Assembly: GCA_947501885.1 (NCBI GenBank)
Contig: CANMXN010000001.1
Location: forward strand, 620,001-684,000
Direction of reading: 5' to 3'
Origin: an uncultured Sphingorhabdus sp.
Lineage (GTDB): Bacteria > Pseudomonadota > Alphaproteobacteria > Sphingomonadales > Sphingomonadaceae
DNA: 64,000 bases
A program made the translations under genes and the position numbers. Of the stretch, positions 18,776-25,502 are shown one piece after another. Below the pieces are notes generated by a model that ran no database searches, was not told where the DNA came from, and saw nothing but the letters and a program-made list of their open reading frames with translations. Position 1 is the stretch's first letter; the number at the start of each line of letters is the position of its first letter.

Positions 18776-18816
18776 TAAAAAGGGTGGCTCCCATCCGTAG
18801 GAACCACCCTGATTTT
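18776..18816. terminator. Bidirectional intrinsic terminator
   Basis: AGGGTGGCTCC (18781-18791) pairs with GGAACCACCCT (18800-18810), an 11-bp stem with one G-U or C-A position and an eight-base loop. AAAAA lies on the left and GATTTT on the right, so it gives a U-tract in both directions. It ends ilvC on the plus strand and the Cys-repeat gene on the minus strand. Confidence 0.85.
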
Positions 18817-18838: not shown

Positions 18839-19150
18839 TTATTCGCTAGGCGAACATGCGCCGCACGCACCACAAGCACTACATGCTGAGCACGCACCAC
18901 AGGCGCCACAAGCTGCTGCACAAGCGCCGCACGCACCACAGGCCGCTGCACAAGCGCCGCACGCACCACAAGCACCACAAGCACCACATGCTGAACATGC
19001 ACCGCAGGCTGAACATGCTGAGCATGCTGAGCATGCTGAGCATGCTTTACAAGCGCTGCATGGACCAGCGGCTGCTACTGCTGGTGCAGATGCAATTGCT
19101 AGACCACCAGCTACTGCTAATAATGTCGCTAATTTTGTCGTTTTTGTCAT
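18839..19150 (-). CDS. Exported cysteine-triplet repeat protein, [G/S]-A-C repeats
   Basis: Product of 103 residues from the ATG at 19150, with GGAG at good spacing; an in-frame TTG at 19162 is a poorer start. Residues 1 to about 28 are a Sec signal peptide ending in an Ala-rich cleavage region. Residues 31-99 are a run of SAC/GAC triplets holding 23 cysteines; all are three residues apart except two gaps of four caused by CAAAC. There is one Lys and no aromatic residue in the repeat. No enzyme domain is present. A periplasmic thiolate metal buffer is the most likely role, by inference from composition and export. The signal peptide and first repeats nearly match those of the YHS fusion next upstream, so one arose from the other by duplication. 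I recognise no named family. Confidence 0.8.
   Translation of the reverse strand: MTKTTKLATLLAVAGGLAIASAPAVAAAGPCSACKACSACSACSACSACGACSACGACGACGACGACAAACGACGACAAACGACGACSACSACGACGACSPSE
18915..18970. repeat. 30-bp tandem duplication inside the Cys-repeat gene
   Basis: A 26-base identical block occurs at 18915-18940 and again at 18945-18970, a period of 30 bases. It encodes the two copies of the ten-residue unit CGACGACAAA. Near 19012-19041 a nine-base unit (CATGCTGAG) is repeated three times. Both point to growth of the gene by slippage or unequal recombination. Confidence 0.85.
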
Positions 19151-19177
19151 TTTACTCTCCAATATATTTTATAATAA

Positions 19178-19195
19178 AAACCTAATATTAGGTTT
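19178..19195. repeat. 18-bp perfect palindrome upstream of the Cys-repeat gene
   Basis: AAACCTAATATTAGGTTT is a perfect palindrome 28 bases ahead of the start codon at 19150. On the minus strand it is followed by TTATTATAAAA, so it could form a weak terminator-like hairpin or be an operator for a dimeric regulator. No choice can be made from sequence. Confidence 0.5.
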
Positions 19196-19216
19196 ATTTC
19201 GTCTTATGGGGACAAA

Positions 19217-19240
19217 TGAGCCGGCACAAAGGCCGGCTCA
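19217..19240 (-). terminator. GC-rich hairpin after the Cys-repeat/YHS gene
   Basis: TGAGCCGGC (19217-19225) and GCCGGCTCA (19232-19240) form a perfect 9-bp stem with a six-base loop, seven bases after the stop codon at 19248. The minus-strand tail is only TTTGTC, a weak U-tract. It could end part of the transcripts and lower expression of the downstream Cys-repeat gene, or stabilise the 3' end. Confidence 0.6.
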
Positions 19241-19247
19241 AATTCTT

Positions 19248-19859
19248 TTATTGGTTTCCAACGCTAGCACCATTAGGAATGGTAGGCCATTTAGCATCAG
19301 ACTTTGCTAGATAACCTGGTATATCTTTCAACCATCTTGCTTGAACATTTTTGTTGAAGTTCAAATATAATTTGCCATCAACAACTTTTGATAATTTTGG
19401 ATCACCTGGTGCCAATTTACCATTAGACATGGCCCATGCGCAGTGACCACCATATTGGGGTGCATAATTTGCAGGATTCTTTTCAAACTCCTTCAAATTT
19501 TTCTTGCTAGCAAAGTGATAAGTAGCGCCTGCATATTCAAGCGAATATTCGGCATTGCCTGCTACTGGTGTGCCATCACCTTGGAAATAGCTGACCACAT
19601 CATATCCGCTCACCGCTGGTTTATCACCATCAATACCTTTAAAAACAGGACGATAAGATGCGGTTGCTGCACATGATGGAGCACAGGCACCGCATGATGC
19701 TGCGCAAGCGGAACAAGCGCCACAAGCTGAACACGCACCGCACGCAGAACATGCTTTACAAGCACCACATGGCGCAGCGGATATAGTCGCAGGGGCTGTT
19801 GCGATTGCCAAGCCACCAGCTACTGCCAGCATGGTTGCTAATTTTACTGATTTAGACAT
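19248..19859 (-). CDS. Exported Cys-triplet repeat / YHS-domain fusion protein
   Basis: Product of 203 residues, AGGA seven bases ahead of the ATG. Residues 1 to about 28 form a Sec signal peptide. Residues 31-63 are a cysteine-repeat segment (11 Cys, mostly GAC/SAC triplets). Residues about 70-190 are a YHS domain with VSGYDVVSYF, YHFASKKNLKEFE, NPANYAPQYGGHCAWAMS and LYLNFNKNVQARWLKDIPGY. YHS proteins of this type (called YHS domain (seleno)proteins) carry Cys or selenocysteine in the GG-x-C position; here it is an ordinary Cys codon. YHS domains are linked to soft-metal binding and heavy-metal ATPases. Its partner lipoprotein gene lies 56 bases upstream. Metal handling in the periplasm is inferred. 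Confidence 0.85.
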   Translation of the reverse strand: MSKSVKLATMLAVAGGLAIATAPATISAAPCGACKACSACGACSACGACSACAASCGACAPSCAATASYRPVFKGIDGDKPAVSGYDVVSYFQGDGTPVAGNAEYSLEYAGATYHFASKKNLKEFEKNPANYAPQYGGHCAWAMSNGKLAPGDPKLSKVVDGKLYLNFNKNVQARWLKDIPGYLAKSDAKWPTIPNGASVGNQ

Positions 19860-19915
19860 ATTTTTTCCTAACTAATTCACTAAATTTCAAACAGGGATTA
19901 AAAATTACGACGGTC

Positions 19916-20467
19916 TTAGGCGCCAAATACAGCGTCATCAGGAATTGTCGGCCAAGCAGCTTCTGATTTTTCAATATAACCAGGGATATCGCTTAGCCAA
20001 TCTTTTTGAACCTCTTTGTTGAAGTTCAAATATAATGCGCCATCGACAACTTTTGCCAAAGTGGCATTACCTGGAGCCAGATTTCCTTTAGACATGGCCC
20101 ATGCACAATGCCCACCATATTTAGGAGCAAAAGCTGCTGGATCACCAATGAATTTTTCTTTATTTTCTGCAGATGCAAAATGATACAGAGCATCACCATA
20201 TTGTACGACATGTTCTTCACTGCCAAGAACAGGTGTACCATCATCCGTGAAATAGCTAGTCACATCATAACCTGAGACTGCAACATTGCCGCCTTCTACA
20301 CCCAAAAATACAGGACGCTTTGCAGCTTCAATAACAACTAGCTCATTGCTCTTCTCTTCAGCTACACTGGTTTCTTCTCCACTATTAGCGGTATCTCCAC
20401 CAGTTCCACAAGCTGCCAAACCAAAGATAATGGTCGTTGCTGCAGATGATAATAATGCTCTTTTCAT
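19916..20467 (-). CDS. YHS-domain lipoprotein
   Basis: Product of 183 residues. The N-terminus MKRALLSSAATTIIFGLAAC is a lipoprotein signal with the lipobox Cys at residue 20, followed by an acidic linker rich in Glu/Ser/Thr and a YHS domain (VSGYDVTSYF, YHFASAENKEKF, FAPKYGGHCAWAMSKG, LYLNFNKEVQKDWLSDIPGY). The domain is clearly homologous to that of the next gene, but there is no Cys-repeat segment; the only mature cysteines are the lipidated one and that of GGHC. It should sit on a membrane facing the periplasm. It is the first gene of the presumed operon, with an ECF-like promoter about 64 bases ahead. Confidence 0.85.
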   Translation of the reverse strand: MKRALLSSAATTIIFGLAACGTGGDTANSGEETSVAEEKSNELVVIEAAKRPVFLGVEGGNVAVSGYDVTSYFTDDGTPVLGSEEHVVQYGDALYHFASAENKEKFIGDPAAFAPKYGGHCAWAMSKGNLAPGNATLAKVVDGALYLNFNKEVQKDWLSDIPGYIEKSEAAWPTIPDDAVFGA

Positions 20468-20530
20468 TTAATGTTTTCCTTATGATTCTCAAATTTATAT
20501 GGCTATAAATAAATGGCCTATGAAATAGGT

Positions 20531-20555
20531 TTCGCACCATATAAGATATAGTTAC
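20531..20555 (-). promoter_or_regulatory. ECF-sigma-like promoter, GTAAC-N16-CGAA
   Basis: Read on the minus strand, GTAAC (20555-20551) is followed after exactly 16 bases by CGAA (20534-20531). The two boxes resemble the -35 and -10 elements described for the Caulobacter heavy-metal-stress ECF factor SigF (GTAAC-type -35, CGAA-type -10), with spacing differing by at most one base. It lies in the 147-base gap ahead of the YHS lipoprotein gene. No sigma factor gene is in the window. Confidence 0.5.
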
Positions 20556-23586: not shown

Positions 23587-24090
23587 CTAGGTTGATATCG
23601 CACTCCAAAGCCGATCAACATCATCATCCAAATATGTAAAATTAATATGCCTGCTCATCGGATCACGCTTGTTCAAGATTATTGGGCAAGGGTTAGATAA
23701 TAATGTCCCACGCAGGGTTTTTTGGACTTTATATAAGCGTAAAGCTATATCTCTGGGGTTACTTTTATATCCAATCTTACCGCATGATTGACGTATAGAA
23801 TTTTCTAGTTTGAAAAGGCGCGTCGCAACCAACTCATTATAGCGCGGATGAGGCCCTCGATGCAGCGGCCTCTCGCATTGCGCTGCCAGCCTCTCACTTG
23901 CAGGGAGATATACACCATTGGTTCTAAAGTCGCGCGGATCAAAACCGCCTATTTTAGCATATTCAAATAGTTTTCCAAAAGCTGGTTTGCGAAATATTTG
24001 CACGGGAATTAAATGATGTTTTTGAAAACCTCTTGCCATAGGCCTCGTCAGACTATGTCTATAAAAACCATGAAGAGAATCTGACGTCAT
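23587..24090 (-). CDS. Small AHH/HNH-type nuclease-like protein
   Basis: Product of 167 residues with FQKHHLIPVQIF near residue 22, which resembles the HH core of the AHH family (HNH/EndoVII nuclease fold), and FDPRDFRTNGVYLP, similar to the segment after it. The C-terminal half holds basic helices. AHH domains are often toxin nucleases, but stand-alone chromosomal copies with no immunity gene are frequent in sphingomonads. No signal peptide is seen. Flanking genes give no hint of function. The family call rests on a short motif. Confidence 0.6.
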   Translation of the reverse strand: MTSDSLHGFYRHSLTRPMARGFQKHHLIPVQIFRKPAFGKLFEYAKIGGFDPRDFRTNGVYLPASERLAAQCERPLHRGPHPRYNELVATRLFKLENSIRQSCGKIGYKSNPRDIALRLYKVQKTLRGTLLSNPCPIILNKRDPMSRHINFTYLDDDVDRLWSAIST

Positions 24091-24155: not shown

Positions 24156-25502
24156 TTATTTTATAGCCATAAAATCAAAGGATATTAAAACAGCATTGGC
24201 TATTTCATCATAACCAGTTTCGCCAATTTTATAATGTAATCGATTAATTGTCACATCGCCCTTTGCATGAGCAGTTGTTTCTTTTTCATCAAGTGTAAAT
24301 ATCACAGTGATCGGGCGAACAATGTTTTTCAAACGCAATTCTCCTTGCATCTCATAACGATTTGCGCCCAGTGCTTTGATAGAGTTAGATGTGAAAGATG
24401 CTTTGGGAAAATTATTAATATCAAAAAAATCCATGCCCATAATGGCACCATTAGCACTAGCATCGGATGTTGTGGCCGATGATATATCAATATCAACCGT
24501 AATTTTTGATTGCTCCAAAGCGCCAGATGCAAAATATATATTTGCATCCCAACGGCTAAAGCTACCCATCACATCATTATCATTCCATTTAACGGTGAAT
24601 GATAATTTCTTTTCTCCAACTATCTTCCACGGAACTGGCTTGCTGTTTTTAATTAACAAGGGTGCCTGTGCCTCAGAGGATGTTTGATCACCCGCATCGG
24701 GTCCATCATTTTCTTCTTCTACGCTCTCTTCTGTTTCTACTTTTCCATCTTTATCGGTATCTATATTACCGTTTAACAGTTGATCATTTATCACGCTATC
24801 CACAACAGATTCAGAAGATAAAGCTGCTGGTTGATTTGGCTTTTTCATATGCCCCTCACCCCAGGTTTGTGCTGCCGCAAATAAGATCAATATTAATACA
24901 ACCAATCCAATTATAGCCGCACTACCAACATTCTTATCTTGTAATTTTGCGATTGGTAACATGCGCAATAAAATAGGTTCACCCTTATAATATTGGTGCC
25001 TCAATGCCCCTGCTATATGCAAAGCAAAAAGTGCAATCCCCACCCATGCAATCATTTCATGTGCCGCCATAGAAGCATCATTTATATTACTTCGTATATC
25101 ACCAGAGATATACTCCAATCCTGGAATATGCGGCCAATATAATATATCAAATAGATAGGTGTCGATGTTAAGACTAGACGTTGAGACCATTAGCCAGCCA
25201 GAAACAGGCGCACCAATCATGAAGGCATAAAGTGCAATATGCGTCATTTTGGCAAGACGCAAAGCCCATATATCATCAATATTTGACAGCGGCGGCGGCT
25301 TTAAGAACCGCAATACCAACCTAGCGATAGACAGTATCAATATTGTAATACCAATAGATTTGTGAAGCTGCGTGATATTAAACAAGCCTTGGCCTATATC
25401 CAATTCCTCCATGCGCCAACCAAGGCCAATTTGAAAAGCCAACGCAAAAGCCAGCCCCCAATGTAAGAGCATGGCATAAATAGAATAGCGCTGATTATCC
25501 AC
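24156..25502 (-). CDS. Cytochrome b561 / YceI-domain fusion protein
   Basis: Product of 448 residues. Residues 1 to about 185 hold four membrane helices of the cytochrome b561 type with candidate heme histidines in MLLHWGLA, QLHKSIGI, AAHEMIAW and FALHIAGALRHQYY. A fifth helix (about 193-212) leads to an acidic Asp/Glu-rich linker (NIDTDKDGKVE). Residues about 280-448 form a YceI-like lipocalin domain (FTVKWNDNDVMGSFSRWDANIYF, GEMQGELRLKNIVRPITV). YceI binds isoprenoid lipids such as polyprenyl quinones, so a quinone-linked redox role at the periplasmic face is plausible but unproven. Confidence 0.85.
   Translation of the reverse strand: MDNQRYSIYAMLLHWGLAFALAFQIGLGWRMEELDIGQGLFNITQLHKSIGITILILSIARLVLRFLKPPPLSNIDDIWALRLAKMTHIALYAFMIGAPVSGWLMVSTSSLNIDTYLFDILYWPHIPGLEYISGDIRSNINDASMAAHEMIAWVGIALFALHIAGALRHQYYKGEPILLRMLPIAKLQDKNVGSAAIIGLVVLILILFAAAQTWGEGHMKKPNQPAALSSESVVDSVINDQLLNGNIDTDKDGKVETEESVEEENDGPDAGDQTSSEAQAPLLIKNSKPVPWKIVGEKKLSFTVKWNDNDVMGSFSRWDANIYFASGALEQSKITVDIDISSATTSDASANGAIMGMDFFDINNFPKASFTSNSIKALGANRYEMQGELRLKNIVRPITVIFTLDEKETTAHAKGDVTINRLHYKIGETGYDEIANAVLISFDFMAIK

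Follow-up and report, generated by a model that had tools for sequence, protein, structure and literature searches.

Three neighbouring genes of an uncultured Sphingorhabdus sp. combine predicted exported cysteine repeats with YHS domains. Judged from sequence comparisons, this gene set probably constitutes a new, thiol-based line of periplasmic defence against toxic metals. The genes lie in a stretch of 64,000 nucleotides that was analysed as a whole (referred to as the window). We consider it about an even chance (roughly 0.5) that they form a periplasmic thiolate set which is controlled by sigma-F, serves under soft-metal or thiol stress and is regulated together with the bufferin system. 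The metal-related reading follows from regulation and genome context and not from the YHS domain. A word search of one open-access library returned no description of this gene make-up, although one may exist elsewhere.

The set comprises, in order on the minus strand, a YHS lipoprotein gene (19916..20467), a Cys-repeat/YHS fusion gene (19248..19859) and a repeat-only gene (18839..19150). Briefly, the first product (183 aa) has a lipobox-like LAAC. The second (203 aa) joins in one protein a leader with a signal peptide, a [G/S]AC repeat with about 11 cysteines within residues 29-72 and a YHS domain C-terminal of these. The third (103 aa from the ATG at 19150) has a signal peptide and 23 cysteines. 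The signal peptides and the lipobox were read by eye, and all the elements named in the first-pass annotation (export signals, YHS lipoprotein, fusion and repeat-only protein, encoded side by side) are present. Both YHS proteins are members of the NCBIfam family NF041384 (YHS_seleno_dom, cut-off 70 bits), with 126.9 bits for the lipoprotein and 143.8 bits for the fusion (residues 82-192); we know of no function for this family. With the Pfam YHS model the fusion passes the cut-off (49 vs 30.3) and the lipoprotein falls short of it (23.2). The repeat-only protein has no Pfam or NCBIfam match at E values up to 1, and its gene is overlapped by antisense ORFs of 161 and 109 aa, which such repeats often permit.

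A strong hairpin (19217..19240, minus strand), which may act as a partial terminator or an mRNA stabiliser, parts the fusion from the repeat-only gene, and a hairpin of differing sequence stands at the same place in L010 and L011, which gives one in each of the three species with the set. A single operon for all three genes, as in the first-pass annotation, is unproven for this reason. An intrinsic-terminator-like hairpin follows 3' of the repeat-only gene (18781..18810, minus strand), and similar hairpins with T runs occur in L010 and L011. The block is flanked on one side by an NMO-family gene adjoining a leuA-like gene and on the other by ilvC (leuA and ilvC were named by eye). Elsewhere in the window, we observed a lone gene of the AHH nuclease family (23587-24090, Pfam AHH 52.3 bits), whose counterparts, identified by eye, occupy the corresponding site in L010, L011 and L047, and a cytochrome b561 fused with a YceI domain (24156-25502), also present in L010 and L011.

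Conservation of the neighbourhood had been set beforehand as a refutation test in the first-pass annotation, and it was found at two levels. First, the three genes occur in identical order in two other species, G035 and G022 (Sphingorhabdus records L081 and L080). Their dN/dS values are 0.09-0.12 for the lipoprotein and 0.05-0.13 for the YHS part of the fusion, where one dS of 2.5 is saturated. Second, a YHS-alignment scan of named genomes gave 77 loci from the best 80 of 205 matches, a sample in which distant taxa are under-represented, and 42 of these loci have a Cys-dense, predicted exported ORF close to their YHS gene. A single leader pattern recovered 40 of the 42 loci; it matched 42 ORFs, all of them Cys-dense and two of them fusions. 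The other two loci (L102 and L107) were recognised by direct reading. Except for L126, a MAG titled Sulfitobacter, the records of the 42 loci carry the titles Sphingorhabdus, Parasphingorhabdus, Erythrobacter, Porphyrobacter, Altererythrobacter, Pontixanthobacter, Sphingomonadaceae or Sphingomonadales.

The arrangement varies within the genus: the order is YHS, Cys repeat, YHS lipoprotein in G028 and YHS, Cys repeat, DUF6969 in G005, and the stretches inspected in G011 and G012 showed no Cys gene. The Cys-repeat/YHS fusion was found in three species only, and it is in this fusion that the window proteins stand apart within NF041384. Strict [G/S]AC triplet arrays occur in 3 of 45 congeners, a fourth (G009) having a single isolated match, and a sequence search with the repeat protein gave matches in only 3 of 61 relatives because the repeats diverge fast. 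Among plasmids, 82 records match the fusion and none covers 80% of it.

Of the 75 residues past residue 28 in the repeat-only protein, 23 are Cys, 26 Ala, 12 Gly and 10 Ser, the cysteines being mostly placed in [G/S]AC triplets that amount to overlapping CxxC motifs; both other forward frames of its gene contain stops. As in metallothioneins, Cys makes up a large share of the repeat and bulky hydrophobic residues are nearly lacking. Unlike metallothioneins, the window repeat proteins are predicted to be exported, and membership was rejected, with no Pfam metallothionein match for the window repeat protein. The leader of the fusion is 71% identical to that of the repeat-only protein over 35 residues, and the fusion therefore resembles a repeat-gene copy to which a YHS domain has been attached. 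Across 40 repeat proteins, the Cys spacing is mostly 3, 4 or 5 with CC in a few, and after residue 28 Cys makes up 12-28%, Met is absent and His is rare. We infer that a flexible thiolate polymer agrees better than a single fixed fold with a period that changes while the Cys density is retained. A neutral low-complexity expansion, in which the repeats would have no function of their own, could account for the tandem arrays, for repeat numbers and periods that differ among relatives and for the leader-bearing relative L223, which has almost lost its cysteines. We regard it as very improbable: the repeat-only gene has mixed synonymous codons and a dN/dS of 0.05-0.25 over its first 38 codons, and high Cys density is kept in the 40 proteins despite their unlike periods.

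The first-pass annotation had also placed the genes behind an ECF-like promoter, and a sigma-F-like box, GTAACT-N15-CGAA, does lie on the minus strand (20531..20555), 63 nt 5' of the first ATG. It differs from the Caulobacter sigma-F consensus GTAACC-N16-CGAA, as given in sections of PMC3511200, by a spacer of 15 instead of 16 and by a T in place of the final C of GTAACC; two close relatives have GTAACC-N15-CGAA, also with 63 nt from box to ATG. According to the same sections, the Caulobacter sigma-F regulon consists of eight genes in three units, two of which are DUF2282/DUF692/DUF2063 operons, and is induced by chromium and cadmium. In the 77 loci (best 80 of 205 matches), the pattern TGWAACY-N15/16-CGA gave 68 hits, 59 of them near the YHS start, and the reversed control pattern gave 11, with one near the YHS start. 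In this comparison "near" is defined generously, from about 60 nt inside to 450 nt 5' of the estimated start, the T/A and C/T freedom was set post hoc after the sequences had been seen and the loci are mutually related. In the same sample (best 80 of 205), 39 of the 42 Cys-gene loci and 10 of the 35 loci lacking that gene have the box near the YHS start. When spacers of 6 to 30 were scanned, 56 hits near the YHS start fell at 16 (against 7 away from it), 3 at 15, 13 at 28 and 0-3 elsewhere. The smaller second peak of the half-sites at spacer 28, with 13 near the YHS start and 6 elsewhere, is unexplained. Box counts in six single genomes, with spacers 14-15 only, were rarer than the reversed control (16 vs 79 in the own genome). 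They were set aside as uninformative about a regulon, the pattern having missed spacer 16, and the promoter claim therefore rests on position and conservation.

The same box points to the bufferin system, which combines Buf1/Buf2 with MNIO, DUF2063, DoxX, ECF sigma-F and NrsF (parts of PMC12452194 and PMC3511200). A single MNIO gene (303.7 bits) occurs in the own genome. It is preceded by a DUF2282 gene (83.4 vs 22.4 bits) whose product is below the NCBIfam BufA2 cut-off (32.3 vs 60), and followed by DUF2063, DoxX, ECF sigma (ECF sigma domains being present) and NrsF (138.7 bits, cut-off 26.8). Of 21 MNIO regions, drawn from 19 of 49 relatives, G005 and the own genome, 17 carry a box with spacer 16 at most 700 nt upstream of MNIO, both strands being counted. 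The 49 genomes obtained for 50 loci (42 with a Cys gene and 8 without) all contain MNIO, and 48 of them contain NrsF. MNIO is not specific to the Cys gene because all eight tested genomes without a Cys gene have it too; MNIO and the box are associated with the YHS gene no less than with the repeats. Within the genus (37 genomes), all 10 genomes that have the YHS family also have MNIO, compared with 10 of the 27 that lack the family (Fisher p 0.0006, relatedness disregarded). Beyond the genus, the YHS family is present and MNIO absent in G038, G041, G047 and G054.

A gene for a predicted exported protein of the YHS (seleno)protein family was also observed directly before MNIO in G015 (L035 1501-3135), G021 (L036) and G031 (L021). 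The small ORF between the two genes in G015 is a DUF2282 protein (84.6 bits) and the MNIO there is BufB (344.7 vs 310); a like small ORF before MNIO was seen by eye in G031, and the ORF listing of G021 contained none. The word YHS is absent from the portion of the main text of the MNIO survey PMC12452194 that was available.

Like the bufferins, the window set consists of small, predicted exported, Cys-containing proteins with the same kind of promoter box in the same genomes, and in three congeners a YHS gene lies within the DUF2282-MNIO cluster. Unlike them, it has low-complexity repeats, a YHS domain and no adjacent MNIO. Bufferin membership was rejected, the three window proteins having no DUF2282 or BufA match in Pfam or NCBIfam. 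The originally suggested link to metals is supported by the box shared with bufferin operons and by the co-occurrence with MNIO, and not by the YHS domain.

In an alternative that we find doubtful, the Cys-repeat proteins would be precursors of RiPPs, their signal peptide would also function as the leader and their cysteines would be modified in the cytoplasm before export, giving a heterocycle-based metallophore, with the bufferin MNIO acting in trans here and an adjacent DUF6969 protein in some relatives as modifiers. The presence of MNIO in all 49 genomes and the common promoter agree with it, and parts of PMC12452194 consider in-trans modification possible for precursors encoded at a distance from MNIO genes. 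No maturase, however, adjoins the window genes. In the same source, HvfA-type/Buf_EGKCG oxazolins resemble the window proteins in their export and in repeats that place a Cys at intervals of a few residues; the window repeats differ by the absence of EGKCG, by spacings of 3-5 and by having no adjacent MNIO. Among period-5 relatives, the NPC-type L084 passes the CefA model NF038108 "Cys-every-fifth RiPP peptide" (34.2 bits, cut-off 30), with L044 (24.5) and L083 (22.9) below. CefA membership of the window repeat protein was rejected, as neither it nor the own genome has a match, and the protein matches no other RiPP model.

The leader gives a similarly divided picture. M1, V13, G15 and G16 are invariant across 44 sequences, as would suit a RiPP leader, but the idea that it is better conserved than ordinary signal peptides had to be dropped (0.695 vs 0.693 for the lipoprotein signal peptide and 0.618 for that of the soluble YHS protein, 23 loci). 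A profile of the leader scores the repeat-only protein at 54.6 bits, a value from a model that includes that very sequence. At E <1e-5 it detects 2 genomes among 385 of the class (the own genome and one more from its family) and 21 among 296 of the order, all from that family.

A further pairing concerns DUF6969. All nine loci that have NPC-type repeats (L084, L085, L089, L100, L104, L105, L106, L108 and L140) have a DUF6969 gene beside the YHS cluster, against 0 of 31 others, with kinship ignored and two of the 42 loci left out at contig ends; it starts 54-115 nt past the Cys gene in all nine. This pairing is in line with the RiPP proposal. Among 28 loci inspected with the leader profile, 19 have no YHS gene within the fetched 2-3 kb; 15 of these 19 carry a DUF6969 ORF (L223, L225-L233, L235-L238 and L241), and several leader proteins of YHS-less loci resemble lipoproteins. 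Seven histidines of DUF6969 (H40, H58, H60, H70, H72, H74 and H106) are invariant in 15 sequences, with the motif HxH...EHGHFH. Its structural model is confident (pLDDT 89.4), a fold search gave no PDB match at E <0.6, and the term DUF6969 was not found by word search of one open-access library. DUF6969 may be a candidate maturase or modifier, or a metal protein; no DUF6969 gene lies beside the window genes at their own locus.

The YHS domain was examined in an alignment of 72 domains, two from the window and 70 of 117 from the loci. Asp/Cys ligands have been proposed for metal-binding YHS/TRASH domains (part of PMC4626032). In our alignment the ligand cysteines are missing in 72 of 72 domains, columns 117 and 121 (matched by eye to the FCSxxC ligands) holding no Cys. 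A canonical metal-binding YHS/TRASH domain (Asp/Cys plus three Cys ligands) was therefore rejected, and soft-metal binding deduced from the YHS domain, as in the first-pass annotation, is not supported. The sole invariant Cys is C140 within YGGHCAWA (72 of 72); 70 domains contain one Cys and two contain two. C140 lies in the GxC/GxU motif of NF041384, which appears as GxU in the selenoprotein table of PMC13188914, and the position is selenocysteine in some members. In an AlphaFold model of the fusion (mean pLDDT 81.0), residues 71-200 reach 86-98 per ten-residue block and the repeat is low. The domain has two beta-hairpin-helix halves, and the second half alone has no Pfam YHS match. A fold search with this model gave no match at E <0.001, and its top rows (adenylate kinase 9, axonemal and toluene monooxygenase entries) are only YHS-containing chains.

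The position of C140, at the GxU of the selenoprotein form, suits another reading, a periplasmic thiol-redox buffer in which the repeats would be sacrificial thiols against oxidants, the YHS protein with its Sec-exchangeable Cys would be a peroxidase or reductase partner and metals would be just one trigger of sigma-F. CxxC-type repeats, which outnumber other types in the window proteins, would also suit it, as would the effect of Caulobacter sigma-F on hydrogen peroxide survival recorded in a section of PMC3511200. That paper, however, reports no sigma-F transcriptional response to peroxide; the YHS domain lacks a resolving Cys and no reductant gene was noted next to the YHS gene. We judge this reading unlikely.

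A further formulation, possible but tentative, is a new class of periplasmic metallophore or thiol polymer: exported, fast-evolving Cys repeats with a conserved leader would be loaded, unloaded or reduced by Sec-exchangeable YHS proteins and matured by DUF6969 in some lineages, within the sigma-F/bufferin regulon. Under the sigma-F-controlled thiolate set that we prefer, metal or thiol stress would free sigma-F from the sigma-F/NrsF system, which would also run the bufferin operon, and the cell would then export the Cys-repeat protein, the repeat-YHS fusion and the membrane-anchored YHS lipoprotein. The repeats would serve as a dense thiolate sponge for soft metals, with Cu(I), Cd, Ag or Hg as the likeliest ions, and the YHS domain, through its single invariant Cys, would act on them as a thiol/metal exchange or redox partner. 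An exported YHS (seleno)protein family, for which we found no described function, would in this way gain a setting, namely a sigma-F/bufferin response to metal or thiol stress, and a thiol-rich partner. If the repeats are modified, MNIO in trans or DUF6969 would represent a new route of metallophore maturation; if they are unmodified, the set would be an unusual exported thiolate buffer.
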